Positions 9,086-30,111 of a DNA stretch of 64,000 bases are shown here, in pieces. Numbering within the stretch: position 1 is the stretch's first letter; each line of letters starts with the position of its first letter. The stretch lies in contig NC_134846.1 of assembly GCF_965363235.1 (NCBI RefSeq), positions 4,035,001 to 4,099,000 on the forward strand. Direction: 5' to 3'. The notes under the pieces are model-generated. The model searched no databases and was not told where the DNA came from. It worked only from the letters and a program-made list of their open reading frames with translations. The translations under genes were made by a program, and so were the position numbers. This stretch comes from Mytilus galloprovincialis. Lineage: Eukaryota; Mollusca; Bivalvia; Mytilida; Mytilidae.

Positions 9086-9093
9086 CACCTTGT

Positions 9094-11135
9094 ATCACCA
9101 GCCCAGTAGCCAGTACTCCGGTACTGGCATGACATACGGATTTTGTGTGTTATTAAATTTGCTGTTATAAAATGTTCAAACATATTATAAATTAAGGAAT
9201 GTATCTCCTTCATGCAAAGCTCTGATTCCTTTCACAGATTCGGCTATATTTTTGGAACTTTTGGATTATAGCTCTTCATCTTTTATATAAGTTTTGGATT
9301 TTACATATTTTGGCCACGAGCATCACTGAAGAGACATGTATTGTAGAAATGCGCATCTGGTGCAGAAAAATTGGTACCGTTAATGTTATTACTACCACTG
9401 GGTCGATGCCTCTACTGGTGGACTGTTAGTCCTCGAGGGTATCACCAGCCCAGTAGCCAGTACTCCGGTACTGGCATGAAAATACGGATTTTGTATGTTA
9501 TTAAATTTGCTGTTATAAAATGTTAAAAAATATTATAAATTAAGGAATGTATCTCCCTCATGCAAAGCTCTGATTCTTTTCACGGATTTGGCTATACCAC
9601 TTGGAACTTTTGGATTATAGCTCTTCATCTTTTATATAAGTTTTGGAGCTTACATTATTTGGCCACGAGCATCACTGAAGAGACATGTATTGTCAAAATG
9701 CACGTCTGGTTCAGAAAAAATTGGTACCGTTAATGTTATTACTATCACTGGTTCGATGCCTCTGCTGGTGGACTGTTAGTCCCCGAGGGTATCACCAGCC
9801 CAGTAGCCAGTACTCCGGTACTGGCATAAAATAGGCATTTTGTGTGTTATTAAGTTTGCTGTTATAAAATGTTAAAAAATATTATAAATTAAGGAATGTA
9901 TCTCCCTCATGCAAAGATCTGATTCCTTTCACGGATTTGGCTATACCTTTTGGAACTTTTGGATTATAGCTCTTTATCTTTTATATAAGCTTTGGATTTT
10001 ACATATTTTGGCCACGAGCATCACTAAAGAGACATGTATTGTCAAAATGCGCGTCTGGTGCAGAAAAAAATGGTACCGTTAATGTTATTTCTACCACTGG
10101 TTCGATGCCTCTGCTGGTGGACTGTTTGTCCCCGAGGATATCACCAGCCCAGTAGCCAGTACTCCGGTACTGGCATGAAAATACGCATTTTGTGTGTTAT
10201 TAAGTTTGCTGTTATAAAATGTTAAAAAATATTATAAATTAAGGAATGTATCTCCCTCATGCAAAGCTCTGATTCCTTTCACGGATTTGGCTATACTTTT
10301 TGGACCTTTTGGATTATAGCTCTTCATCTTTTATATAAGCTTTGGATTTTACATATTTTGGCCACGAGCATCACTACAGAGACATGTATTGTCGAAATGC
10401 GCATCTGGTGCAGAAAAATTAGTACTGTTAATGTTATTATTACCACTGGGTCGATACCTCTGCTGGTGGACTGTTAGTCCCCGAGGGTATCACCAGCCCA
10501 GTAGCCAGTACTCCGGTACTGAAATGAAAATACGCATTTTGTGTGTTATTAAGTTTGCTGTTATAAAATGTTAAAAAATATTATAAATTAAGGAATGTAT
10601 CTCCCTCATGCAAAGCTCTGATTCCTTTCACGGATTTGGCTATACTTTTTGGACCTTTTGGATTATAGCTCTTCATCTTTTATATAAGCTTTGGATTTTA
10701 CATATTTTGGCCACGAGCATCACTAAAGAGACATGTATTGTCGAAATGCGCATCTGGTGCAGAAAAATTAGTACTGTTAATGTTATTATTACCACTGGGT
10801 CGATGCCTCTGCTGGTGGACTGTTAGTCCCCGAGGGTATCACCAGCCCAGTAGCCAGTACTCCGGTACTGAAATGAAAATACGCATTTTGTGTGTTATTA
10901 AATTTGCTGTTATAAAATGTTAAAAAATATTATAAATTAAGGAATGTATCTCCCTCATGCAAAGCTCTGATTCCTTTCACGGATTTGGCTTTACTTTTTG
11001 GAACTTTTGGATTATAGCTCTTCATCTTTTATATAAGCTTTGGATTTTACATATTTTGGCCACGAGCATCACTGAAGAGACATGTATTGTCGAAATGCAC
11101 ATCTGGTGCAGAAAAATTAGTACCGTTAATGTTAT
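9094..11135 (+). repeat. Satellite array, about 5.8 copies of a 349-bp monomer
   Basis: Copies start with ATCACCAGCCCAGTAGCCAG at 9094, 9441, 9791, 10140, 10489 and 10838, so spacings are 347, 350, 349, 349 and 349. The last copy stops near 11135. Copies 4-6 are almost identical and copies 1-3 more diverged, consistent with local homogenisation. Each monomer holds an inverted repeat (GTACTCCGGTAC) and the block CATCACTGAAGAGACATG, then TGTCGAAATGCGCATCTGG, which resembles a decayed hammerhead ribozyme. Frames within the array are repeat translations. A lone diverged copy lies at about 38175-38400. Confidence 0.9.
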
Positions 11136-11194
11136 TTTACGATAAAAGTGAATTAGATTTCAGGATCATTTTCAAATGAGAAATTCAGAAAAAG

Positions 11195-11470: not shown

Positions 11471-11579
11471 AAGAAAAGCAGTCAACATTGTGTTATCATC
11501 TAAATCACTATAAAAACAACAAATGTAACGAAGAAGCACAAAAAGGCATACATCAAATTGAACAGCCTCATTTTATATA

Positions 11580-13850: not shown

Positions 13851-14383
13851 TAACAAATTAAAAAGGAAAGTGTACAGCAAGAAAGGACAAATAATTTGTT
13901 TTACGATCAAGCTCCGGAATGTCGCTGCGAATCAAATAATCGTTTTTTTGTTTTTAAATATATGTGGAAGTTGGACATACATTATATATATGTTGCCATT
14001 TTAATTATTTGCATTTCATTTATCACTACTATTTAACTAAGTATCAATTTGCAAAAATCAAAAAAAAAAAACACTATACAACATCAATTTATCTTTTCTT
14101 TTTAAACTTCAATAGCTCACAAACGGTCATTTTCCAGAATTTGAGCAGATTCTTATTTTGTTCTTTTGATTTAACGAGGCCCGATCTGGAACGCGTTTTT
14201 GAATATTGCGCAACTCGGGCATTTTTCGGCAGTTGGTTTAACGGTTATAACATAACACATAAAATAAATATAAACAATACCTTTTCTGATTATTTTAGGA
14301 ACTAAAATGATAAAATAAATCAATTTTTGATCGTAGTTTATATTTTATTTAAATTTATACTGTTATTATTGTTTACGACATAG
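13851..14383. other. Region upstream of the gene
   Basis: AT-rich. The 113-codon frame at 13964-14305 is low-complexity, without domains or splice context. No terminal inverted repeat matching sequence beyond 25003 was found by eye. Confidence 0.4.
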
Positions 14384-14391
14384 TTTCGCGC
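14384..14391 (+). promoter_or_regulatory. E2F-like site upstream of the transposase-exonuclease gene
   Basis: TTTCGCGC lies 33 bases before the proposed start codon and matches the E2F consensus TTTSGCGC. It continues into GCCATTT, which resembles a YY1/initiator-type core. The surrounding 60 bases are AT-rich, so the match stands out. If real it would tie expression to the cell cycle, as for many DNA metabolism genes. A single 8-bp match is weak evidence. Confidence 0.3.
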
Positions 14392-14423
14392 CATTTACGG
14401 CAATGTAAACAATATCAGACGAC

Positions 14424-14946
14424 ATGCCTAGCAGAAAGAAGAACGGTCGGTTTTTGAAAAACTGTCAGGCAGAGACTTACAACAACAGATGAGACAACAT
14501 ATCTCGACCCGATTTATCCACAACTGATTTTGATACACCATCTACACTCGATTTTGATACTACTTTTACACCCGATTTTGATACTACTTTTACGCCCGAT
14601 TTTGATACATCTTTTACACCAGGTTCTTTCCAACATGATCACACGTATCAATCCTCTGCATCGTTTGATGAGATCAATGAGTTCTATTTTTCTGGAAAAT
14701 TAAAGCCAATAGGTTATACCAGACATGTGATTGACATTCAAACCTTTTTTGATAATATGAGATGTTCCAGATGTGACATTACATTGAAGTTAAAAGATGG
14801 AATTGGAATTTTGCCTGCTGGTTTATGTGGTCACCTGATTGTTCGTTGTTATAACTGTAATGACTTTTTACGTGTTGCCATGGGCAAAACCCACAATGCA
14901 TCCCATGGGCCAAGGATATTTGATGTCAACACCAAACTTGCAACTG
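14424..14946 (+). CDS. Exon 1: N-terminal region with zinc-ribbon-like Cys pairs
   Basis: The frame from ATG 14424 starts MPSRKKNGRF, a basic N-terminus, meets TGA at 14490, then stays open from 14493 to the donor GTAAGT at 14947. After the stop it encodes three to four copies of an eight-residue acidic repeat close to DFDTTFTP (about 14530-14625), then a domain with CSRC and CYNC pairs spaced about 30 residues apart. That is the pattern before the catalytic core in animal Mutator-like transposases. The first in-frame ATG after the TGA is at 14757, just before the first Cys pair, so translation could restart there and lose little of the domain. Ends in phase 1 (G of a Gly codon). Confidence 0.65.
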
Positions 14947-17900
14947 GTAAGTGCAAAAATAAAATCTGCACACCCTGTATATTTATACTTTATATTCACA
15001 TGTAGCATGTTTACCTAGTACCAATTCCTGGACTGCAAATAATTATGATGTCTTACGAGTGCTGCCTTGTAGTAGCATTAGCCTACTCTTTTTCGAAATC
15101 TACAAGGGTGTCTTTAACGTGCAAGAGGAATCCATGACAAGTCGCCCCACTAGCAAGTCGCCCCACTCCTAATAGCCCCACTTTTTCACCAACTCGCCCC
15201 ACTTTAAAAAAAAAAACGCCCCAACCTGGATTACCAAATCGCCCCACTTTTTAAAAAATCGCCCCACTTGTGAAATGTGTTAAATCCCGTTAATATTACT
15301 CCTGAAAACTTGCCCCACTGAATGGAAAACGATAAAATCTAGATTAATATATTATTAATATATTATTAACCAGGATGAATTTAGTAAAGCCAACTCGCCC
15401 CACTTATGGAAAAAGATGTTATCCCGTTGTATATAAGTTAAATTCCGTGAATATTACTCCTGCGAACTCGCCCCACTTATGGAAAACGATAATATCTAGA
15501 TTAATATATTATTAACCAGGATGAATGTAGTAATGCCAACTCGCCCCACTTATGGAAAAAGATGTTATTCTGTGAATATTACTCCTGCCAACTCGCCCCA
15601 CTTAAAAGAAAATGATAATAATCTAGATTTATATTATATTATTAACCAGGATGAATGTAGTAATGCCAACTCGCCCCACTTATGGAAAAAGATGTTATCC
15701 CGTTGTATATAAGTTAAATTCCGTGAATATTACTCCTGCCAACTCGCCCCACTTATGGAAAAAGATGTTATCCCATTGTATATAAGTTAAATTCCGTGAA
15801 TATTACTCCTGCCAACTCGCCCCACTTATGGAAAAAGATTATTACTCCTGCCAACTCGCCCCACTTGTAGAAAAAGATGTTATCCCATTGTATATAAGTT
15901 AAATTCCATGAATATTACTCCTGCCAACTCGCCCCACTTATGGAAAAAGATGCTATCCCCTTGAAAACCTTATAGAAACTTCTTATATTATTCCCTTTTT
16001 TTAATATAGCAGTAAGAAGTGAGTATTAATATTTCCACTTATGAATAGTACAAGTATGAATAGAGTTAAAATAAATATTTAACATGATTAAACCAATTTC
16101 ACATGTGGGACGATTTTTTAAAAAGTGGGGCGATTTGGTAATCCAGGTTGGGGTGTTTTTTTTTAAAGTTGGGCGAGTTGGTGAAAAAGTGGGGCAATTA
16201 GGTGTGGGGCGACTTGTCCTGCTTCCGTGCAAGAGATATGACTCTCTCTTAACACGGGTCAGCCAATTTTCGTCCCCTTCCAACGGACTATCATCGTTAC
16301 TTTAGTTTACTGCTTTTGGTTGGTTTTTTTCTGTCGGGCAAGAATGTAAAAAATACAAAATCAAATTTACAGAACCAAAATCTTACATCATCCAGTGAAA
16401 AGGTACTTTACACAGTAGAATAAAATGCTTCATTGAGCGCTTATCAAACCCTGACAATTGGGGCAATATTGGACACAATATTCCAGCTTGATACTGTCTG
16501 AATTGGGATTGTGATTAAATTTGTTGACATAATTATGATATAGCTTTCAGGGCCTTTTGAAGCTACATGTAACTATGCTGAATGGGCTTTGGCTCACTGT
16601 TGAAGGCTGTACAGTGACCTTTAGTTGTAAAAACTGTCTTGTGAACAGTTGTCTCATTGGCAATCATACCACATCTTCTTTTTTATATTCTGTACATGTA
16701 CATTTTAAATTTATTCTGTACTATGCACCAAATACTCAGACTATTGCCCTGATCTTTTTTATGGAACTCTGGTTGTGACAAACCAACATTTTTTTCAATG
16801 TGGCCCCACATCAAGGATATGATATAGACCCAGAAAGAAGTCTGTAACATGTATAAATTTTGAGCAATACATTGTAACTATTAAGAAGTCATATTTTTTA
16901 TTGATTTAATAAAATCTACCAACCCAACACGCATCGTTTTATAAGTTGTATTTCGTCACATTTCATTATCTTATGACACAAAAAAAATACATTGCATCCT
17001 GGACTCATCAAAATCTTTTGGGACTCACCATTTCTAAAAGTGATGAGTCCCAGGACTCACCATGAAAAATTCCTAGTGAGAACCCCGACTCTTATAACAA
17101 AACCTTTAACATCATGTGCCGCAATGTGGATATATCCAAAATCAGTGAAAATTTGGTGTCAGAATGAGGCCACACTTAGAAATATTTTGGTTTGCCAAAA
17201 CCCTTAGTACCCAATCTATGCATCGAGAAAGTGGGTATATTTGTTGCTACAATGTAGGTAGGCTATTTCTTTTCTTTTTCTTTTGGCTATGAGAAATTTA
17301 AGTATCAATGTTTATAAGTCTTCATGTCTATCTGAATAAAAATAAATATTTTCACATTAGGACAATAAAAGATTTTTAAGTAGGTAGTATTTTCAAGGAA
17401 GGTACATGTAGCATTAGGGCAAACAAACCTATTCTTTTTTTAGGGTCTGATATAGTCTCCTTGTTCTATATATAGAAAACTGTTTAACCAGACTTTTTAT
17501 ATTTATATTATTTGTGTATTGAAATCATTAAATACTTTTGTTTCTTTTTAAAAAAAATAGCAATTAATTTGACAGATCAGTTGTCCAGATATATACTGAT
17601 CATTAAATTGCTAATTGTTAATGAAAAAAACACCACATAAAAATTAAATTGTATATCAGCTCAAGGCAAGATTTTAAGTAAACATATAAATTAGTAAAAA
17701 GGGCTAAGTTAGCTTTTCTCATCACTTTGCGTCCATCATGGTTTTTACAAAAATCTTCTCCTCTGAAACTATACTAAGAAAAATTTAACCAAACTTGTCC
17801 ACAGTCATCATGATCATTGCGTTTATCATTATGGTATCTTGTTAAAAAGATGTGTCCCATGACCCCCCCCCCCCCCACATGAATCAAGATGGCAGCCATG

Positions 17901-20900
17901 GCTAAAAATACATAGGGTAAAATGCAGTTTTTTGGCTTATTTTTCTAATGAAATTGTTCATTACATGTAGGTCAAGTTCTATCTGCCCTTTAATTTTCAG
18001 ACCATTCGGGCAACTTGTTGTTGGGCTGCTGCCCCGGAATTAGTAATTTTAGGAAAATTTTGCAGCCTTTGGTTATTATCTTTTGATGTCTCGAAATATC
18101 AATGTTATTTGTACAAGACTTACAACATGTAGAAGCAGATAGAAAGCGAGGCTGTGGCGAGAAAAAGTTTTTTTCCAGCCAAGTACAAATAAAATTTATA
18201 TTTCAAAACAAGGTATGCTGTTTCACTATAAACTGCAACTCTTATAACTGATCTAATTGATGTATTTAGAGTAGAAACTATCATTTCTTACTTTTAAGCC
18301 AAAGGCGTAAAATTTCCGCCAACCTGTATATTTTATTGACGTCATCAATTAAACTGTACAGAAACCCATTGTCTACGTCATATACAAGGGGATATATACA
18401 TGTACGATCACTGACTGTTTATCACAGATGAATTATAGTCGATGCAATTTGACTGCTCATATAGCACAGCTGCAGTATGTCACCTTATATTAGTACTGTT
18501 GTTCAAATTTTTAGTTTTAAAATATATATATGTTAGATATAGGAAGATGTGGTGTGAGTGCCAATGAGACAACTCTCCATCCAAATAACAATTTATAAAA
18601 GTAAACCATTATAGGTCAATGTACGGCCTTCAACTTGGAGCCAACGGTCTAATCTATATAAAAACGAGTAACGAGAAACATGTATAAATTACATAAACAC
18701 ATGATAACTACTGTACATCAGATTCCTATATGTACATAAATGTATTGACACATACAAATACTGCAATTTTTTAAATGAAAATTAATATTTCAGGTATGTA
18801 CCACAGTGGAATAGGACCAATACAGCTTAATAATTTATTTACATCACTAAATTTGCCAAATGTCAGTGAAAGCCTGATAAGAAGACGTTGTGAAGAGGTT
18901 GGGCCTATTCTTGAAAATATAGCACAACAGTCCGTAGACAATGCTTTGTTTGAGGAGGGATTGCTAACAAAAACTTGTGAGTAAATCAATGATGACTCTT
19001 TAATGACAGATTTGTGTAAGCCTGATATTTTCTAGTATTGAATATCAATCTACAAAGGATTGAACCACTCTACACATGTCATGAATATTAATGTGAATGT
19101 GATTTGTTGTGTGAAAATTAGCACTATTTTGAATGAGCATGAAATGAAGTTTAAATCATAATTAACGCAACATAAGTTTTTATATGTCAGTCTTTAAAGA
19201 AAAATAGAACTTTATTCATATGATAAACAAGAGGCTAGCTAGATCTGGCTTTGTTCACATGTAATTTGTCTATTATTTGAGTTTGTTAACTTTCAAAAAA
19301 CCTGCTATGAAACAATGAACACCAAACTAAGTCTTAATTATCCTTATTTAGTACAAGGTTTGTGTTTTATTTTCTCTTTTGTAAAAAAAACATGGCTGCC
19401 ATTGCTATAAATAAATCATAGGGGTGAAATGCAGATTTTGGCTTATAACTCTGAAACTAAAGCAATTAGTATATATTTGACATGGGGTCAAGATCTATAT
19501 TCCCTTAAATTTTCAGGGGAATCAGACATTGCCTGACCTGTTGTATTAGGGTTGCTGTCCATATGTAGTGCTTTTATCTTTTAACTTGTCAATCATTTTT
19601 TCATTTCAGGTAATTTAATAGCCGATAATGACAGTGATGCAATTCATGCTATTGCTAGTGGGTCAGAAACTGCAACAAGCAGTAGTGGAATAGCTTCAAC
19701 AGATAACACTAATCCTGTGTGTGGCCCTATTAATGTAACTGGAATAACAGCATCAGCAGACGGAGCTTATCAGAGAAGGGGCTCAGGAAGGTGTTACAAT
19801 AGTTTGTCTGGTAACTATATCTTTATTATTTACCTATCTTAAGATGGAAGTATTATGATCTGTTTACATGTCATACTAAAACTAAAAAAAAACTTATTTT
19901 ATTCTTAAAACTAAGAAATATTGAACAGATATATCATTCTTGGAAGCAGGGTTTCCGTTGGCAGCCTCCATTTTTACACATTTTGGAAAAGAAAAAAAAA
20001 TGTTTGCAATGAAAGATTCATCGTTTGCAAAAGAATTTGGCTAAAGAAATTATAACAATTGGATTTTATCCATCTTGTTTACCTTTTACGGGTTTCTTGG
20101 ACAAAATGAATACTTCATCAGACAATATTGATTTATTTGTCACTTAGGGGCCTTTAACAGTTGACTATACTGTATTGGCTTTGTTCATTGTTAAAGGCCG
20201 TACAGTGACCTATAATTGTTAATTTCTATGTCATCTTGGGCTCTTGTGGAGAGTTGTCTCATGTGCAATCATACCACATCTTCTTTTTTTTTCTCTTTTG
20301 GTTTTTTTGTAAGTAAGGAAAATTGTATGTAAAATATGTTTATGTTTGTTGGCAAAACTAAATTGAAAAAGGCATAGAGGTAAAAAAGAATATTTTCCAC
20401 CAGCAGAAAAACATATGTGTATAAAAATGAACAGGGTTATAAAAATGAAATAAATTTGAATAAAAATACATTAAAAATACTCCTGGTATCAACTATTTTT
20501 ATGAAGGGTACAATAATGTGAATAATATATATGAGGAGCTAGATTCCTTTTGACATGAAAGTGGGTGTAACACGTAATTAATGAAATCCAGTAATTTAAA
20601 AAAAATATTCAATGGAAAACTTTTTGTAGGAACAGCTTCCATGATTGGGAAAAAAACAGGAAAGGTTGTTGGCTATAGTGCTCGATATAAGAGATGCAGG
20701 AAATGTGATGTGGCAAAATTTAAAAAACGGCTACCAACAAAACATAAATGTCGTAAGAATTGGTGTGGCTCAGCCAAATCTATGGAACCAGACATGATTG
20801 TGGAAATACTCAAAGACGCCAAAAAGAAAGATACCCCGGTAATTACACTAATAGGAGATGACGATTGCACAGCATTCAATCGGGCAAGATGTGAAGTCGA

Positions 20901-23900
20901 CTCATGTTTGGAAAAGGTCAGTGACATCAATCATGTAAAGAAGAACATATCAAATAGGCTCCACAAAATAAAAGGCAAATATAAAGAACTCTCTGTAAAA
21001 ACAATTACTGCTCTCATTAAAAGTTTTTCTTTCATGTTAGCCCAAAACAAAGGTGACTCAGACAGAATAAAGAACAGTTTACCATCTGTAGTGCTACACC
21101 AGTTTGGTAATCATGATGGATGTGGAGACTGGTGCCAAATGAAAAACAAACCCACAGCAAAGCACAGAAATCTACCATGGGGTGCAGATCTCAAAGATGA
21201 AAACTTGAAAAAAGATCTTTTAAAAGTGTTTACAGACCTTGACCCGGGAAAGATGAGCAAACTAGATTCCAGTAATCCTAATGAAAGCTTTAACAACACT
21301 GTTCGATCAAAGGCCCCAAAAGACAAGCATTACAGTGAGAGTGGAAGTTTAGCTCACAGATTGTCTGCTGCTGTTTGTCAAAAAAATGAAGGCTACAAAT
21401 ATGTTGCACAGGTACTAATAATTTATTTAAATAAAGTAATATAAAAACATTCATCAAATTATTTTTTTAAACAGAATATGGTTTATAAACTTGAAAAACT
21501 GTAAAACTGGTTCACTAATTAGGTTAAGTTGAAAGATAAACCATAATCACATGAAACTCATAGATATAAAAAAGAAGATATGGTATGATTGCCAATGAGA
21601 CAACTCTCCATGAGACAAACTTGACACAGAAATTAACAATTATATATATAGGTGACTATATGGCCTTCAACAATGAGCCAAGCCCATACTGCATAGTCAG
21701 CTATAAAAGGCACGAAATGACAATGTAAAACAATTCAGAGCAAACTAACCGCCTTATTTTTATAAAAAAAAATAGAACAAAAAACAAATTTGTAACACTA
21801 ACACATAAACAAACGACAACCACAGAATTACAGGTTCCTTACTTGAGACAGGCACATACATAGAAAAAAATATATCAAAAAGAATAATATAAATGTTGTT
21901 TAGGATGGTAGCTTTGTGAAATGTTATCATACACAATGTAAGACACAGCTCCCAAGTTCTTGTGTGTTTTTTTAGGTCCATGAAGAGCTTGGTCTTAGTC
22001 CTGGAATTGCCACAACAGTAACAGCTGCAATAAGAGACAAGGATGTTAACAGGAAAAGGACTGTAGCAAAGACTAAGGAATTTAAGGTTTGATTTAAAAG
22101 CATTTCAGAATTTTCATTCGAACACAATCTTTATACATTAAATGACTTTTAAGGAGATTGATAAATTCTAAACATAGTTTTATGCAGCCTTTTGAAATAT
22201 CTTATTTTCATGATAAAAAAAATTAAAAATCCCTGTTTTGTGGGAGTTACATCCCTTTGATCATATGATAGAAAGTTTTTAAATGAAAAAAAATCCTCTA
22301 AATTGTTGTTTTTTTTTTAAATTTTATATAAAGTATTATCCTATTGTATCATTATAACTATGTGAATAAACATTAAATTTGTCATGCTTTAGAGTGTGTA
22401 GACTTTACTTTTACATGAAACAATGCAAAGGAATGTTTATTTCTTATATTTTACAGTTACAACGTTTAAAACTTAAAAGTCAGAGATCTTCAGAAACAAG
22501 AAGTCATGAAATCAGGGAAGGGGACACTTACTGCTCAAATGTCATTGGCATGTATAAATTTTATCTGTACGTTTTCAATAAGAATTTAAAAAAACAATAA
22601 TTGTTCCTACAACATGTTATCAAAGCACTACCCATATATAAAATATATTTCAAAATATTTGATATAAAATTATAGTTATATTAATTTGGGATTTACTATT
22701 TTCTAACAAAGAAAGATAATTTTTGTTAGAGTTTTTTGACAACATAGATGTTTGGGGAATATGATTGAACTTTCATGATGAACAACCTTTTAATATAATT
22801 TTGACAATGAAAGAACATGACTAATTTCCATTAATGAAATTGCCCTGCTAACATTATTGGTAAATTATTTATAATACTGTTACTCTCTTTTGTGGTTTGT
22901 ATTTCATATAACTTATATTATGTTTTTTTTTCAAATATCCAAATATACAATTTTCAAATATACAATTATCCAATATATAACAATATCAAAATAAGAAAGA
23001 AATTTGAAATCAAAATGTATTTTGAAGATTTAACAAAAAAAAAGTGTTTCCATTACTTTTTCGTATGACAGTGGATTACAACACAAAAACCGAAACAGTG
23101 TTATTACATCCCTTCTTTCTAATTTTATACATTATATTGAATTTTTCCAGATAGGTCTTCTTACAAGATATAATTTGACCTCAATTGTATATTTTAGCTG
23201 ATGCACAAGAACCTGACTTGACAGTTATTCCAGGACCATCAGAGGACAACTGTCAACATATTGAGAAAGTTGTAGTTTTTTATGATTTAGAGACCACAGG
23301 ACTAAGTATGATATAAATATGAATTGGAAATAGGAAAGCATCAAGTTTATTTGTACAAGCTTTAGGAGTAAGGGAATATGCCAGACTTGCCAAACAATTT
23401 CACCTATCAGCCAAGTATTCACAAAAACTTGATATTTTCTGACAATATTATATACTTATTGACTGACAGGCTATAAGGACAAATCATTGAATGGATAAAG
23501 AGTGGAAGCATAGTTAAACTTGCTATTGTTTGAAAAAGCCAGTCAATAACTATTTTTTTATAAAGAAAACCATGGCATCAGAATGATGTATTATCAGACT
23601 ATGATGTCACTTTTATCCAAAGACAAAAGTTCAGGAAATGGTTAAAAACTATTTGCTGGTTAAGTCTTTTTTACTATTAGGTAAATAGTCAAGAGAAAAT
23701 TTTCTAAAAAAAAAAGCTTGTGTTCGTTTATAGTTCTATTGTAAAAAAAACACACTGTCGTATAACAATGGTACTTTATTCGGAAAAAAGTTCTAGACAA
23801 TCAGGAATTCATTAGTTGAGCCAAATAATGTCCTTCCACCTTTTTAATCTGCAACTTTTTAGAATGCCTCATCAAGGAAATGTTATGAAACTTACACAAA

Positions 23901-25003
23901 ATTTAAGTCATTGATGCACATTTATTGGAAAATATAAAGAAAAATAATCCTGGTCTAAGAAATTCCATAATTGATATAATTTAGTTAATCAAATGTGGGA
24001 TGTGGAGGTATCCTTTAGTAAGTTGAGTCATATTCCTATGCAATACTCTCAGACTGCTAAGTACTATCCATACTGATCTGTGTCCACTATTGTTACTCTT
24101 GGTTTAATTATACAAAAGAAATTTGCAATTGAACTTTTACCATGACAATCATTCAATCTACTTATTTTCATCAATTTATTAAGTTATTTTCTTTTTTATA
24201 TAGGTAGACAAAGTTCAATTACACAAATCTCTGCAGTTTGTGAAGAACAGGAATTTAACAGATACGCAACTCCTACTCAAGAAATTTCAGAAGATGCATG
24301 TAGAGTGACAGGATTAAAGTTTAATACAGCGACAAATGAGCTCCTTTACAATGATGAACCAGTTTCACATAAACACCCACAGCAAGTTCTTTTAGATTTC
24401 ATACAGTTTTTAATGTCACTTTGTGCCAGTGACAAACACATTGTGCTTGCTGCTCATAACAATAGGCGATTTGACAGTATCATACTATTTAATCAATTAA
24501 AATTTTATAAATTATGGAATCATTTTTCAAGATATATTGTTGGATTCTGTGATACTTTACCTTTTTTCAAAATGTTGTATCCAGAATTTGAAAATTACAA
24601 GCAAGAGTATATTGCTCAGAAACTGTTGAATGAAGCTTATTCCGCTCACAACGCTTTAGATGATTGTAGAATGCTTATGTCTCTTGTAAAAAAGACGGAG
24701 AAAATTGATGTTCTCCTATCTGACTATTTTTACAGCAGTCACCAAGTTACATTTCAGGGTGTGCAACCGAATAAAGAGTCATTAGAACACTTGTTAAGAA
24801 ATAAGGTCCTCTATAGAACAATTTTCAAGAAACTTGAAGATTCAACATTGACTTACAATCATCTGAAAATTTCTTATCATAGAGATGGATTTGATGGTCT
24901 ATTTTATTTGTTGAGTGAAAAGACAGGCAGTGGAAAGGCCAGAATTAGTAACAATCGTCGAGTGATCCAAAAGATAGCTGACTTTTTTTCTAATGAAGAA
25001 TGA
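14424..25003 (+). CDS. Mutator-like transposase fused to DEDDh exonuclease (multi-exon gene)
   Basis: Seen: eight putative exons at 14424-14946, 18794-18976, 19610-19810, 20630-21411, 21976-22086, 22457-about 22547, 23198-23305 and 24204-25003, about 932 codons. Introns 1-5 and 7 have GT/AG ends and matching phases (1,1,1,0,0,1). In order: a Cys pair region (CSRC, CYNC; residues about 114-150), a DDE core with DGAYQRRG (D286), GDDDCTAF (D379) and NPNESF (E521), then DLETTGL (D660, E662), HNNRRFD (D757) and HNALDD (H815, D820). Known: these are the landmarks of the animal Mutator-like transposase domain and of DEDDh 3'-5' exonucleases. Inferred: one nuclear protein that binds DNA, cuts and joins strands, and trims 3' ends. 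It may be a transposon gene or a domesticated one; no terminal inverted repeats were found around it. Odd: in-frame TGA at codon 23 (14490), and an uncertain exon 6/7 junction. Confidence 0.75.
14490..14492 (+). other. In-frame TGA interrupting exon 1
   Basis: The codon after YNNR is TGA, yet the same frame is open both before it (from 14424) and after it for about 150 codons. A single C-to-T change of CGA would produce it. Alternatives: the true start is downstream; a short intron removes the stop (a GT lies at 14445 and an AG at 14619-14620); or this allele is dead. Confidence 0.7.
15119..15127 (+). repeat. Left target-site duplication GTGCAAGAG
   Basis: Perfect direct copy of 16227-16235, directly abutting the left inverted end of the intronic element. 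The preceding C is also shared, so the duplication could be 10 bp. Confidence 0.7.
15128..16226. mobile_element. Non-autonomous inverted-repeat element with 9-bp target duplication, in intron 1
   Basis: The left end (15128-about 15290) and right end (about 16086-16226) are inverted copies, matching over about 140 bases by eye. The left copy has an extra 16-base block that duplicates its own GTCGCCCCAC motif. GTGCAAGAG stands immediately outside both ends (15119-15127 and 16227-16235), a 9-bp direct repeat and so a likely target-site duplication. The interior is a minisatellite built on the same CTCGCCCCACTT motif. Known: 8-11 bp duplications, most often 9, are typical of Mutator-type elements. 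There is no coding capacity; short frames inside are repeat translations. Confidence 0.75.
15300..15960 (+). repeat. Minisatellite with CTCGCCCCACTTATGG core
   Basis: About nine copies of the core CCAACTCGCCCCACTTATGG followed by AAAAAGATGTTATCCC, a TATATAAGTTAAATTCCGTG stretch and AATATTACTCCTG. Unit length varies (about 73 bases when complete, shorter where the spacer is deleted). Entirely inside the inverted-repeat element, so it grew from the element's own end motif. Confidence 0.8.
16227..16235 (+). repeat. Right target-site duplication GTGCAAGAG
   Basis: Second copy of the 9-bp direct repeat, directly abutting the right inverted end of the intronic element. Confidence 0.7.
16236..18793 (+). 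other. Rest of intron 1: repeats only
   Basis: Holds a reverse fragment of repeat family B (16570-16685), a small inverted repeat around GATGAGTCC/GGACTCATC (16998-17062), a poly-C run of 13 at about 17864-17876, an old dispersed repeat ending in a GGCAGCCATGGC block (17720-18060) whose relative sits in intron 2 (19380-19570), and a forward family B copy (18535-18730). No coding sequence was seen. Confidence 0.6.
18535..18730 (+). repeat. Dispersed repeat family B, forward copy
   Basis: Begins GATATAGGAAGATGTGG, then GAGTGCCAATGAGACAAC, continues with ATAGGTCAATGTACGG and ends near CATCAGATTCC. Same family as the copies at 1735, 37540, 41700, 54711, 55328 and others listed. It looks like a short non-autonomous mussel element; a copy inside intron 1 shows the gene has existed long enough to gather insertions. 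Confidence 0.7.
18794..18976 (+). CDS. Exon 2 of the transposase-exonuclease gene
   Basis: Acceptor TTTCAG at 18788-18793, donor GTGAGT at 18977. The split Gly codon (G from exon 1, GT here) gives ATGMYHSGIG, which matches the conserved segment upstream of the catalytic core in Mutator-like domains, where a GKG/SG motif and a 'NLP' follow; here SLNLPNVSES is present. The rest (about residues 176-235) is predicted helical and acidic. Phase 1 in and phase 1 out; the last T joins GT of exon 3 to make Cys236. Confidence 0.75.
19610..19810 (+). CDS. Exon 3: first catalytic Asp of the DDE core
   Basis: Acceptor TTTTTTCATTTCAG ends at 19609; donor GTAACT begins at 19811. After a Ser/Thr-rich linker, the end reads SADGAYQRRGSGRCYNSLS, the equivalent of the D-G-x-W/Y-Q-x-R-G block holding the first catalytic Asp (codon 19759-19761, about residue 286) of animal Mutator-like transposases. 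The last G pairs with GA of exon 4 to complete the Gly of NSLSG. Confidence 0.8.
20165..20290 (-). repeat. Family B fragment in intron 3
   Basis: Reverse orientation: TTGGCTTTGTTCATTG, GTACAGTGACCTATAATTG, GAGAGTTGTCTCATG and ATACCACATCTTC in the usual order. Diverged, with internal deletions. Confidence 0.6.
20630..21411 (+). CDS. Exon 4: main catalytic part of the Mutator-like transposase domain
   Basis: Acceptor TTTTTGTAG ends at 20629; donor GTACTA begins at 21412. Although the frame is open from an ATG at 20581, the splice site and protein match place the exon start at 20630 (GTASMIGKKTGKVVGYS). Family landmarks in order: GKV-GY segment; CRKC with HKCRKNWCGSAKSME (zinc-coordinating and GSAxxME block); TLIGDDDCTAF with the second catalytic Asp (about D379); a helical insert with NRLHKIK; HDGCGDWC; and NPNESFNNTV with the catalytic Glu (about E521). 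Length and order match the family. No stop or frameshift was seen across 260 codons, which suggests selection or recent activity. Confidence 0.85.
21575..21765 (+). repeat. Family B variant in intron 4
   Basis: AAGAAGATATGGTATGATTG, CCAATGAGACAACTCTCCA, GGCCTTCAACAATGAGCC, GCTATAAAAGGC in order. Belongs to the same variant subfamily as 11580-11770 (shared CATACCGC/CATACTGC-TAGT segment and GACAATGTAAAACAATTC). Confidence 0.65.
21976..22086 (+). CDS. Exon 5: post-catalytic helical segment
   Basis: Acceptor TTTTTTTAG ends at 21975; donor GTTTGA begins at 22087; 37 codons, phase 0 on both sides. Encodes VHEELGLSPG followed by a Lys/Arg-rich stretch ending KTKEFK. In animal Mutator-like proteins this region follows the catalytic Glu as a basic helix. 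The donor is weak beyond the GT, but both phases agree with the neighbours. Confidence 0.65.
22457..22547 (+). CDS. Exon 6: end of the transposase domain (3' boundary uncertain)
   Basis: Acceptor ATATTTTACAG ends at 22456. The frame reads LQRLKLKSQRSSETRSHE then EGDTYCSN, matching the basic helix plus EGxTY motif that closes the animal Mutator-like domain. The next exon needs a phase-1 donor here. The GT donors at 22541, 22552 and 22567 give the wrong phase. The phase-compatible options are a non-canonical GC donor at 22548 (shown) or GT at 22503, which would delete EGDTY. A missed mini-exon is also possible. Confidence 0.5.
23198..23305 (+). CDS. Exon 7: linker and Exo I motif of the DEDDh exonuclease
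   Basis: Acceptor GTATATTTTAG ends at 23197; donor GTATGA begins at 23306. After an acidic linker (DAQEPDLTVIPGPSED) comes VVVFYDLETTGL, the canonical Exo I motif with D660 and E662 as metal ligands. The final A joins GT of exon 8 to encode Ser, giving DLETTGLSRQSSITQI, which fits the family without a gap. Confidence 0.75.
24204..25003 (+). CDS. Exon 8: Exo II and Exo III motifs and C-terminal tail
   Basis: Acceptor TTTTTTATATAG ends at 24203; the open frame runs to TGA 25001-25003. SSITQISAV continues the core strand. LAAHNNRRFDSIIL is Exo II (D757) and AHNALDDCRML is Exo III with the H-x4-D spacing (H815, D820) that defines DEDDh rather than DEDDy enzymes. About 105 residues follow, helical in character, with LKISYHRDGFDGLF and a basic GKARISNNRR segment. 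This tail resembles those after exonuclease-like domains in transposon-derived animal proteins, including the PML-type C-terminal domain (from memory, unverified). No AATAAA lies in the next 200 bases. Confidence 0.8.
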
Positions 25004-25500
25004 TGTTATTACTGTATACAGTGACTATACACATGAATATGTATTGATAAATAGGGCAGCATTTAATATTTATACATGCGCTTTAAACAAAATAGGGGTT
25101 TACTGTTCTACCTCTGTCTGTGCCATAAATATATTTTGTTTAATTTTTTGAGGAACTTGAAGACGAGGATTTCTGATATTTTATTTCAGGGTTTATAAGT
25201 AAGTTTTAACCTGTGATGCATTTTAAGATTCCCCACTCAACAACTTCCTGTTTAACAAAATTAGTATGATTTTACACATGATAGCCAAGTTGATATTTTT
25301 TTTGTCACATTTTTCTCAGAAACTACTATATAAGTCAGCAATACCATGTGATTCTTTTTCAGATTCATCAATCAACAACATCCCTTTTATCTTACACTTG
25401 TATCATTTCACACATGATAGCAATGTGGAAAATTTTAGTTACATTTTATAAGGAAATATTCAGGTGGGGGTATCATTTTACCTGCATCACGGTATGTAAT
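25004..25500 (+). other. 3' flank of the gene
   Basis: No further exon or AATAAA close to the stop. TTTTACACATGATAGCCAAG (25270) and TTTCACACATGATAGCAATG (25406) look like two units of an old repeat. Confidence 0.4.
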
Positions 25501-25529
25501 TCTGTCTGTCTATTAATCTTTCGACAATG

Positions 25530-26080
25530 ATTTCTTCGCTTCTATGAGAGGGAATGATTTTATATGAAGCCCAGAGCTTGATCATGGAGAGTTGTAAGCA
25601 TTTTTTTTATCTGGTATGCAGCCAAATTAATTACTCAGTTTAAAGTATGACTGCTGAATGTACAAGGAAATTATTTTTGTAAAGTTTTCTTGGCTTTTAT
25701 GAAAGGGGATGATTCTATATTTGGCCCAAAGCTTGAAAATATTGAGTTGTAACGATTAAGCAGTTTTTAGATCTGCAGTTCAGCCACTTTGTGTTTGCTG
25801 ATAGTTTGAAATGTAACTACTCATTGTACAAGGTAAAAGTTTGTCTTCAAAATTGTCTAAGCTTCTATGAAAGGGAATAATTTCATATTTGGTCCAGAAT
25901 AGACTCCAGATCTTAACATGTTGAGTGCAATAATTAGATCTTCAGTACAGGAACTTCCTGTAAGAGAGTAGTTTGAAATTTTACTACCAATTGTATTTGT
26001 GTATAAGGAAAATTTGTGAACAAAATTTTCTTGGCTTCTCTACAAGACAATCATTTTATATTTGTTAACCTTTTGTAAAT
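25530..26080 (+). repeat. Degenerate tandem repeat of about 155-175 bases
   Basis: Four unit starts resemble CTTCTATGAAAGGGAATGAT (about 25539, 25694, 25862, 26034), each followed by ATATTTGGCCCA-type and TTGAGTTGTAA-type blocks and, before the next unit, TACAAGGAAA. Strongly diverged, non-coding. Confidence 0.55.
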
Positions 26081-28640
26081 TTGTGTAATACTAATGGATA
26101 TCTTGGATAAACCAGTAGGAAAACTTGAATCACATTTTCCTGGGTGACCATCTGTTCAGTTTATATTGATAAGGTATGCTTGGAAGGATGGGTACGTCAA
26201 TAAACGCCTTTGCCAAAACTGCTTCCCTAATATAGTCATGCGCAGTACACATGAAAAGAATTTGAGGTCTGAAGAAAGATAAAATTTGGAAAACAAATAT
26301 TAAAAATGTATCAATTAATAATTATCAGAATTTAGCACATTTTTTTAGAACGTGGTTGCTTTGTAATCTGGTCTCAGACTCACAAATTCAACATAAAAGC
26401 CCTCTTTTTTGTTTGTAAGTTTAGGACTCCGTCCAGTAAATAAGTTTAATCCTATAATGTTGCACAAAAATTACAATTTCATTTGATTTCAGTTATCAAC
26501 CTTATGTTTTAGGGACTTTAAAAATCTGTTCATAAACATATATAGTTACCTTGTTTTCATTGTTGAATTTATGTTATTTGTTATATTGTTAATATTGAAA
26601 TTATTAAATACTCAATCAGTAAGAGATTGTTTTTTTATTATGTTTATCTGGCATAGAAACAAAAAAATAGATCAGGGAGTGTTAGTTCTGTCTGTAGTAA
26701 TGAACATTGTTGGAACAAATGCATGAAGTCATCACCAAGTCTCCCGGGTGCAGCAGATATAAACAAATAAGAAGATGTGGTATGATTACGAATGAAACCG
26801 ATTCAGCTACAAAGGCTCACAATATGATCTGCACTGAATGACATTGGAATTGACTACTGACAGTCTGCTCCATATTGCCTCAAAAACATTTAAAAAAAAC
26901 AGTTGAATACAATGGCTCAGCAAAATTTCAAGATAAATGATATGACAGAAAAAAAAAGACTCGTCATTCCCAGAGAGGAGTTCACACGGCCTTAAAAGTA
27001 CCCAAGCCTCCAGGCTATAAAGACCAGCTTTTAATGATTTCAACAGGATTCTGTATGAGATATCTGTTTTTATAGTTGAACCCTCACAAGTTTATATATA
27101 TACGTCTACTAAAAGTAGGGGATTATAGTGTAAAGATCTCTGTGTCCGACAGTCCATTGGTACAAAGTCTGGTTGAACTGCAGGTAGAAGTTATTTTATT
27201 TTACCATAAAGGATTGTGCTATGATATCATTATGAAAACTTTATATAAACCTATAGGCATCAGAGTATAAATAATATCATTTTGGTATTTAACCCTTCTA
27301 ATCAACTTCACGGTTCATTGATTATGTAAAAAAGGTATTGCATTACATTTTATTTTTTTTAGATATTCAATTTGTGTTTTGAGATGTTCCCCATTAAGAT
27401 TTTTAACCAATATTTCCATTTGCAAGTCTTAACTAGGAATCTACTTTTTTCAAATAAAGTGCAATTCAATTCCTATTGATCTTTTCTATTTGTAAAATAA
27501 ATAAAAAAAAGTTTTGAGATTCTCCCTTCAAAAATGTCAAACCCAATAAACCAAGTTTTTTTTATTTTTTTCAACTCAAATGCATTCTTTTATGTATGTA
27601 TTATAAGTTTGTTTTATTTACATTTACATATTTCTTTTCAATTATTTTTGATTATTAGATTTTTGCTTGTGAAGATATGATAATAAATGACTTGAAATTA
27701 TGCACCCCCCTCCACCCCCCTCCTTGTGAAATTTTACCTTTTAAGTATGTTTTTTTAATTAATAATTACAGTTTTGTTGATCCGGGATAACAAAGAGACA
27801 ACTTATTACATTTTTAAAAATTAATTTTGGATATTTTGAGTGATATCTTGATTTTCTTTTAAAAAAATGGTAAAATGTAGGTTTTGAGAGCCCCCCCTAT
27901 AAAAATTTTCCACCGCAACACCTGGTTTTCTGACTTTGAATGGAAAGAGTGATGTTTGATGCATGTCATATGTGAAAAACAAAATTAGTTATTGAACAGT
28001 TTTTTTTTAAATTCACTTTTAGTTCATTTCAGGGCAATTTTTACTATATATCCATTATAATATTAGCCCTATTTTAGCATGTCCCTCCCGTTACTACAAT
28101 AAAGGTAAGGTATATATTTTTTTAGCTTAATCCATTCATTATACATATATAGGAATTGAGGAAAAAATTCAGACATAGTTATTGGTCAGATTTTTCATAA
28201 TTCTTTTAGATTGGGCCTCGTTAAGACCTTAATATACTAATATAAATGTAAATAAAGTCCGAGTCATCCTTTTCCCGCCAATTTTTAAAAGTTAGTTTTA
28301 AGTATCTCAAAAAGGAGCTCCATGACCTATCCACATTTATAGCTTATTTTTGTTCCTTTAATAATACCATTTTGACTTAAAGTCTCAATTTTTTTTTTTT
28401 TTTTTAATTTTTAAAGTTTCACCTTAGTACATCCTTGAGTGAAACAAGCATAGAAGTGGGTCAAACCAATATGCAACACCAAAATACATAAATTCTTACG
28501 CACCAGGATGCCCAAATTAAATGGTAAATGTTAAGTATTTCTCAATACTAACATAATATAAATCAAATAAAAATATAAAAGTTCAAAACACATTTTGTAT
28601 CATGAAATTGTCTTCATATATTTAGTGCTTTAGAGTGTGT
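26081..28640. other. Unassigned AT-rich sequence
   Basis: No gene recognised. Contains a family B scrap (26770-26805), C-rich runs at 27705-27722 and 27889-27897, and a long T run at about 28388-28406. Confidence 0.4.
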
Positions 28641-29670: not shown

Positions 29671-30111
29671 TTTATTAACCAACTAAGTACATTATTGCCA
29701 AAAATGACTGGTTATTAAAAATAACATATTTTCTGTAATGGCCCTGTTTTTCTGTAATGGCCCTGTTTTTTTCTGTAATGGCCCTGTTTTTTTTTTGTAA
29801 TGGCCCTGTTTTTCTGTAATGGCCCTGTTTTTTTTCTGTAATGGCCCTGTTTTTCTGTAATGGCCCTGTATTAATGCCCGGTTTGTCTGTATAAAGCACA
29901 GTAAGGGTTTTTAATAAGTTAATAAAATTAAGTTGTAAAGAGTATAATACGTTTTTGTATTTTATTTAATTTAGTAACCAGCAACCAACATTAAAAAAAC
30001 ATATATAGGGATCACCGATCCTCCTGTTTTTCAACACATAACTTCTGTCAACTTAATATCTTGAATATTTGGTATATTAACACATACACTGTTATTCAGT
30101 TGGTTAATAAA
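29671..30111. mobile_element. Possible insertion with 14-bp inverted ends
   Basis: TTTATTAACCAACT (29671-29684) is the reverse complement of AGTTGGTTAATAAA (30098-30111). The segment lies where the paralogous locus at about 12890 has no corresponding sequence, and contains the minisatellite. No coding capacity. Confidence 0.4.
29732..29870 (+). repeat. Minisatellite, TGTAATGGCCCTGTTTTT unit
   Basis: Seven copies of CTGTAATGGCCCTGT separated by T runs of different length. The 74-codon minus-strand frame over it is a repeat translation. The motif TAATGGCCCTGTTATA also occurs in the hairpin at 30122-30282. Confidence 0.85.

Follow-up and report, generated by a model that had tools for sequence, protein, structure and literature searches.

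A KolobokD-type DNA transposon of Mytilus galloprovincialis predicted to join a transposase to a DEDDh exonuclease with a PML_C end

Why a mussel gene should join a transposase to a DEDDh exonuclease is the question raised by the window analyzed here, a stretch of 64,000 bp (C9:4035001-4099000) of the 1.38-Gb Mytilus galloprovincialis genome. The gene very probably belongs to a KolobokD-type cut-and-paste DNA transposon that has been active recently, in which one spliced gene would encode a transposase, a linker, the exonuclease, and a PML_C domain, in this order. The pairing of transposase and exonuclease was named and briefly described previously; the present analysis adds the exact ends of an element, its TTAA target site as seen in empty sites, relatives carrying both modules in a single frame, low divergence among copies, similar constraint on the two modules, and an EXO plus PML_C module that retains its catalytic residues. 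This last module, with its intact catalytic residues and its putative kinship to PLEX9, PML, and Exuperantia (Exu), is the part most worth following.

The mobile unit and its copies

The element proper occupies positions 14175-28220 of the window (14,046 bp) and has 13-bp terminal inverted repeats, the left one (CGAGGCCCGATCT, 14175-14187, + strand) matching the reverse complement of the right one (28208-28220, - strand, reading AGATTGGGCCTCG on the + strand) at 12 of 13 bases. A TTAA target-site duplication lies outside each end, at 14171-14174 and 28221-28224, assigned from the TTAA at the tips of the copies and from the empty sites described below. A sequence-only reading of this DNA had delimited a gene at 14424-25003, and a gene is indeed there, but it is merely part of the 14.05-kb element ending at 28220. 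The 3' part (25004-28207) holds no recognized gene, the longest listed stop-to-stop frame in 25004-28000 being 94 amino acids.

When the region of exon 4 was compared with the whole genome, at least 137 matches were found among the scored candidates (the genome-wide counts for transposase, exonuclease, and PML_C given here are all minimum figures based on scored candidates), 11 of which besides the window were 92-99% identical and lay on several chromosomes. Nine of these 11 copies (all but C14:9610395 and C8:71333284) were fetched with their surroundings. They share the unit 14171-28224, or the left part thereof, and their flanks differ, which indicates that the exonuclease exons move in the same mobile unit as the transposase. 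Both ends are visible in eight copies including the window, and the left end only in copies C9b and C3; TTAA stood at the tip of 10 of 10 left ends and eight of eight right ends. The 3' part was 96.6-97.3% identical by BLAST to six of the eight copies matched, 85% to copy C5, and 90% to a 592-bp piece of C9b.

For the empty-site search, a single query combined eight constructs, each made of the two flanks of a complete copy placed around one TTAA. Of 2519 candidates, 40 were scored, and every one of them matched the C11 construct at 95-99% along its length. The eight of them that were fetched all read GATGAT-TTAA-TGATTG without a gap, which indicates that TTAA was single before the C11 insertion and was duplicated by it. 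Copy C11 (C11:3422363-3442362; G000, L025, L026) itself sits in a repeat, the empty version of which occurs in at least 40 places, and it is this circumstance that furnished the empty-site proof.

The copies differ in age. Over 3.1 kb of 3' noncoding sequence, with gaps left out, pairwise divergence among six other young copies is 0.13-0.91%, and their divergence from the window is 0.77-1.03%; the older copy C5 stands at 6.6-6.8%. Five of 10 copies (C7, C11, C13, C1, and C6b) have neither an in-frame stop nor a gapped codon. A length difference of nine bases in exon 1 is found in C1, C6b, and C6a, the last of which also lacks exon 5. Exon 1 of C9b is broken, and exon 7 of this copy carries a 1-base indel; C3 contains one stop and breaks off within exon 7; and C5 shows two stops together with small indels and a changed donor at exon 2.

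One gene with two catalytic modules

The exon chain was rebuilt from the letters of the window, all exons lying on the + strand. Exon 1 (14424-14946), placed by its frame and donor, encodes the N-terminal part, and exon 2 (18794-18976) is of phase 1 in and out with AG/GT borders. Exon 3 (19610-19810) carries the first catalytic Asp, D286, and the PF20700 match, whereas the CCHC motif, D379, the DxxH motif, a second zinc motif, and E521 are all in exon 4 (20630-21411). Exon 5 (21976-22086) was not found in copy C6a and is skipped in gene model P0017. Exon 6 (22457-22547) ends the transposase with the tail ...REGDTYCSNVI; exon 7 (23198-23305) supplies the linker and the exonuclease motif DxE (D660, E662); and exon 8 (24204-25003) supplies the remainder of the DEDDh motif (D757, H815, D820), PML_C at approximately 24749-25000, and the stop codon TGA at 25001-25003.

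The eight exons join in phase into 933 codons, in agreement with the claim of the sequence-only reading that seven splice junctions put both modules in one frame, and the catalytic residues that it had listed (D286, D379, and E521 for the transposase; D660, E662, D757, H815, and D820 for the exonuclease) stand in the joined translation at exactly those numbers. Its frame was not, however, open from 14424: in its own numbering, codon 23 of the window copy (14490-14492) is an in-frame TGA, and none of the nine other aligned copies has a stop there. Similarly, it had placed the join of exons 6 and 7 correctly but had overlooked that the exon 6 donor at 22548 is GC in the window copy, instead of the standard GT present in all nine other copies aligned there. 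The Pfam search that it had proposed matched the joined protein to both expected families, PF20700 Mutator (7.9e-55) and RNase_T (5e-12), and additionally to PML_C (9e-20), which it had not seen.

Two relatives, at C11:81273464 and C9:24013991, each carry both modules in one frame without interruption (685 and 675 amino acids); these frames span the protein from approximately the first catalytic Asp onward, i.e. transposase, linker, DEDDh exonuclease, and PML_C. On the genome scale, at least 137 transposase rows and at least 137 exonuclease rows were merged into 123 and 133 places, respectively. At 89 of the 123 transposase places, an exonuclease followed downstream on the same strand at a distance of no more than 15 kb, and at none of the 123 did one lie upstream or on the other strand; conversely, a transposase lay upstream at 88 of the 133 exonuclease places. 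In a control of 200 rotations, the mean number of pairings was 0.115 and the maximum 1, and chance neighborhood was ruled out by this comparison. These comparisons support one predicted gene for the DDE transposase and the DEDDh exonuclease, and the association of the two exceeds chance.

The same architecture is found in database gene models. P0017 (898 amino acids) and P0016 (767 amino acids, with part of the transposase skipped) of M. galloprovincialis match Mutator, exonuclease, and PML_C and have the same exon 6-7 join. Among other bivalves, where the sequence-only reading had suggested looking, P0018 of M. coruscus matches Mutator and exonuclease, and P0020 of M. edulis matches Mutator and PML_C. 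No terminal repeats were found in loci L041 and L042 within the 4.4 kb fetched. A further predicted protein of Mytilus coruscus, P0019 (1030 amino acids), has PML_C beside PF08477, PF16095, and PF00071, which we take to be small-GTPase-type domains; it may be a gene-model artefact or a capture of the transposon exon.

Regarding constraint, the ratio of nonsynonymous to synonymous differences per site (pN/pS) between the window and copy C5 was 0.23 over codons 24-600 and 0.22 over codons 655-932, by simple Nei-Gojobori counts and with C5 itself broken, which suggests that the nuclease is about equally constrained as the transposase. Copy number and substitution ratio were further checks named in the sequence-only reading; the gene is multicopy, and the ratio is approximately 0.2 on both modules.

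Class of the element and role of the exonuclease

Kolobok elements are described in PMC9587614 as having TTAA duplications, a C/DxxH motif, and, in almost all cases, a zinc motif before the last E, with a CCHC motif after the first D in a few lineages, among them KolobokD. The mussel element has a 4-bp TTAA duplication, the C/DxxH motif D401-I-N-H404 between D379 and E521 (a motif common to hAT, P, MuDR, and Dada and not diagnostic alone), a zinc motif H464..C467...C471 between H404 and E521, and a CCHC motif (C325, C328, H341, C343) after D286. KolobokD was named in 2022 (Kojima and Bao) for its DEDDh exonuclease and is reported from molluscs, arthropods, and cnidarians (PMC9587614, section 11); here, a DEDDh exonuclease is encoded and the host is a mollusc (P0002 and P0017 come from M. 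galloprovincialis). On these features of its sequence, namely TTAA, C/DxxH, the two zinc motifs, and the exonuclease, the element is best filed as a KolobokD-type Kolobok, with the exception of its termini. The sequence-only reading could not say whether such a pairing had been described; it has been, as KolobokD, a term that occurred in one paper of the literature searched.

Other readings of the locus were weighed against this assignment. Mutator (MuDR) elements duplicate 8-11 bp of their target, and the sequence-only reading had supposed a Mutator-type transposase leaving 9-bp gaps, in keeping with the Pfam name of PF20700, Mutator-like transposase. Since TTAA stands at all ends seen and occurs once in the eight fetched C11 empty sites, a 9-bp duplication was rejected; moreover, MuDR is stated to lack zinc motifs between the second D and the E (PMC9587614, section 10), which the mussel element has, and a true Mutator element is very unlikely. 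It is also improbable that two adjacent genes share the element, one a transposase that ends within exon 6 or later and the other an exonuclease expressed from its own start. Two genes would fit the GC donor of exon 6 in the window copy and gene models P0001 and P0002, which contain the exonuclease but lack most of the transposase, the transcript structure being predicted from DNA; nevertheless, exon 7 offers no ATG ahead of DxE and has a same-frame stop just upstream, exon 6 joins in phase as ...REGDTYCSNVI-ADAQEPDL... in P0001, P0008, and P0016 and with one residue changed in P0017, and the uninterrupted 685- and 675-residue frames make the two-gene arrangement unlikely. Finally, open frames and a low pN/pS of approximately 0.2 would also be expected of a domesticated host gene, the alternative that the sequence-only reading had left beside a live transposon gene. 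Near-identical copies (92-99%) are, however, dispersed over at least 11 other places on several chromosomes; the copies examined have the element ends and TTAA, and the noncoding parts of the young ones are only 0.1-1% apart. Domestication is refuted for the window locus by this dispersal and is extremely improbable, and "live" is supported for the family, the window copy itself carrying a stop and an altered donor.

The transposase part would bind the 13-bp ends, excise the element, and paste it into TTAA, and the tethered PLEX9/TREX1-like exonuclease may act on 3' DNA ends made nearby at excision. It would most likely trim the ends of the donor site, end trimming having also been suggested in the sequence-only reading, or destroy free by-product DNA, so that repair would proceed by copying rather than by simple sealing; donor trimming would block plain resealing at TTAA, and a sister copy used as a template would restore the element and raise its copy number. 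This role is proposed as a possible one, and with some doubt. The exonuclease may instead work outside transposition by clearing free transposon DNA from host sensors, attacking competitors, or binding RNA like PML-1 or Exu. The nearest solved relatives, Plex9.1, Exu, and TREX1/2, favor such work, and PML-like exonucleases reportedly restrict retrotransposons, to go by the title of a 2023 paper by Mathavarajah et al. PML-1 is also described as binding G-rich RNA and single-stranded DNA, and Exu as binding RNA (PMC12934764). On the other hand, the exonuclease follows the transposase at most of the places scored and shares one frame with it in two relatives, which argues for work at the transposon's own ends, and a function outside transposition appears rather unlikely.

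Several points weigh against the assignment and mechanism preferred here, a KolobokD-type transposon with a fused exonuclease acting at excision. The empty-site evidence comes from a single copy, C11, and the window copy itself has the codon 23 stop and the GC donor. The gene is known here from genomic sequence and gene models, and the family was set beside published Kolobok by motifs and description. Kolobok ends are said to be marked by 5'-RR...YY-3' (PMC9587614), whereas the ends inside TTAA read 5'-CG...CG-3'. No downstream exonuclease match was present at 34 of 123 transposase places, and no upstream transposase match at 45 of 133 exonuclease places. The mechanism is also not obvious because a 3'-5' exonuclease could damage the transposon's own 3' ends.

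Repeats occur both in and around the element. In intron 1, repeat searches found tandem repeats of the CGCCCCACTT type (15150-16220), the layout of which varies among other copies; the block is partly mirrored as inverted copies (15208-15293 and 16079-16164). A short dispersed repeat around AAGATGTGGTATGATTGCCAATGAGACAACT occurs in both orientations at 11575, 16639, 18534, 20242, 21564, and 26760, several of these in element introns. Upstream of the element, 9092-11136 is a tandem array of approximately six 349-bp units that are 95% alike, and 29729-29869 is an array of 19-22 bp units, TTTTCTGTAATGGCCCTGT.

Kinship of the exonuclease and comparison with known systems

The DEDDh module keeps all five catalytic residues, from which 3'-5' exonuclease activity is predicted. 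PML_C (PF25244) scored 71.1 bits against a curated cut-off of 27.1, and was above the cut-off in 150 of 150 scored places of the M. galloprovincialis genome (289 candidates; at least 150) and in none of 14 control genomes. By phmmer, the best solved matches of the exonuclease were 9l8b (4e-30) and zebrafish Plex9.1 (1e-22), with Exu (5l80) far behind (3e-4); TREX1 and TREX2 were not matched by single-sequence search up to an E value of 1. Sequence and structure comparison placed Plex9.1, Exu, and TREX1/2 as the nearest solved relatives. The structure comparison did not demonstrate the SAM-like part, the match to Exu covering 310 columns at a root-mean-square deviation of 12.6 and the VIA-align rows mostly residues 63-266; the identity of PML_C is given by its Pfam score.

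A tree was computed from 61 rows, none of them PML, TREX, or Exu. Of these, 44 are the window, 17 places of the M. galloprovincialis genome, and 26 database proteins, their residence in transposons being presumed and not established per row; five are PLEX9-type rows, namely P0010 (Xiphophorus), Plex9.1 (zebrafish; PMC12934764), and P0011, 9l8b, and 9l85, called fish by similarity. The KolobokD-type exonucleases, the PLEX9-type rows, and an ant protein split from bacterial DnaQ (100/99), and homology between the KolobokD-type and PLEX9-type nucleases is strongly suggested by sequence. The five PLEX9-type rows formed one clade (98/90) among the KolobokD-type exonucleases, with deep forks unsettled, and the ant protein was its weak neighbor (85/77). 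An approximately unbiased (AU) test did not reject a single clade of the other 44 rows (p 0.535 when the ant was left out, 0.361 when it was included); nesting of PLEX9 within the transposon exonucleases is thus not demonstrated. The ant protein, P0044 of Cyphomyrmex costatus, has DEDDh motifs with Exu_RNase_H_like, RNase_T, and PML_C matches, and is a possible bridge between Exu and transposon nucleases.

The close likeness of the exonuclease to fish PLEX9 exonucleases and to the tail of the tumor suppressor PML hints at a shared origin. We tentatively consider it a serious possibility that the EXO plus SAM-like (PML_C) end of PML isoform 1, PLEX9, and possibly Exu were domesticated from KolobokD exonucleases. 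PML is a vertebrate protein and PLEX9, going by the title of the paper by Mathavarajah et al. (2023), is said to be one too; since the transposon side is diverse, is reported from several phyla, and keeps the catalytic residues, we lean to the transposon-to-host direction. The PML-1 tail is described as an EXO-like plus SAM-like module without activity, the SAM-like part being stated to occur in no other nuclease and a similar arrangement only in the pseudonuclease Exu (PMC12934764), whereas spotted gar PML has exonuclease activity (PMC11602975), and a similarity of the KolobokD exonuclease to Exu, TREX, and ERI1 was noted in PMC9587614. Words beginning "transpos" are absent from the main text of PMC12934764 and PMC11602975, as is the term PML from that of PMC9587614, and no title or abstract among those listed by the literature searches links Kolobok to PML, PLEX9, or Exu, which Mathavarajah et al. 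(2023) may discuss. A search for full-length PML with the 909-residue model returned only five Mytilus proteins. If the proposal holds, the DNA-trimming enzyme of a selfish element would have entered PML nuclear bodies, retroelement defense, and germline RNA localization, with catalysis lost in human PML and in Exu. The family named after the end of PML has at least 150 matches in the mussel genome, transposon exonucleases among them (its Pfam seed may include molluscs), and PML_C in transposon exonucleases with catalytic residues makes the origin of the PML-1 tail testable by phylogeny and assay.

Compared with known systems, the mussel protein differs from Plex9.1 (9mrc/9mrd), 9l8b, and 9l85, the solved chains of which have 189-196 residues and no transposase; 9l8b and 9l85, listed merely as exodeoxyribonuclease III, cluster with zebrafish Plex9.1. 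Xiphophorus P0010 (197 amino acids) likewise has no transposase and no PML_C match. The C-terminus of PML isoform 1 (PXL), an EXO-like followed by a SAM-like helical domain, is matched through PML_C (9e-20), a likeness via Pfam and not direct; human PML-1 has lost its active site and nuclease activity and Drosophila Exu is a pseudonuclease (PMC12934764), whereas the mussel exonuclease keeps the DEDDh residues. MuDR/Mutator shares a DDE transposase and the Pfam name, but differs in duplication length and zinc motifs. KolobokE (lambda-exonuclease-like) and KolobokP (His-Me finger) also place a nuclease of a transposable element beside a related transposase, with other nuclease folds, and KolobokP has long terminal direct repeats (PMC9587614), none of which appeared in the mussel repeat search of 8000-30000. 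The closest counterpart is KolobokD, which, as described in PMC9587614 and set beside the element from that description, likewise occurs in molluscs and pairs a Kolobok-type DDE transposase with a DEDDh (DnaQ) exonuclease, the mussel element departing from it in its CG...CG, not RR...YY, ends.

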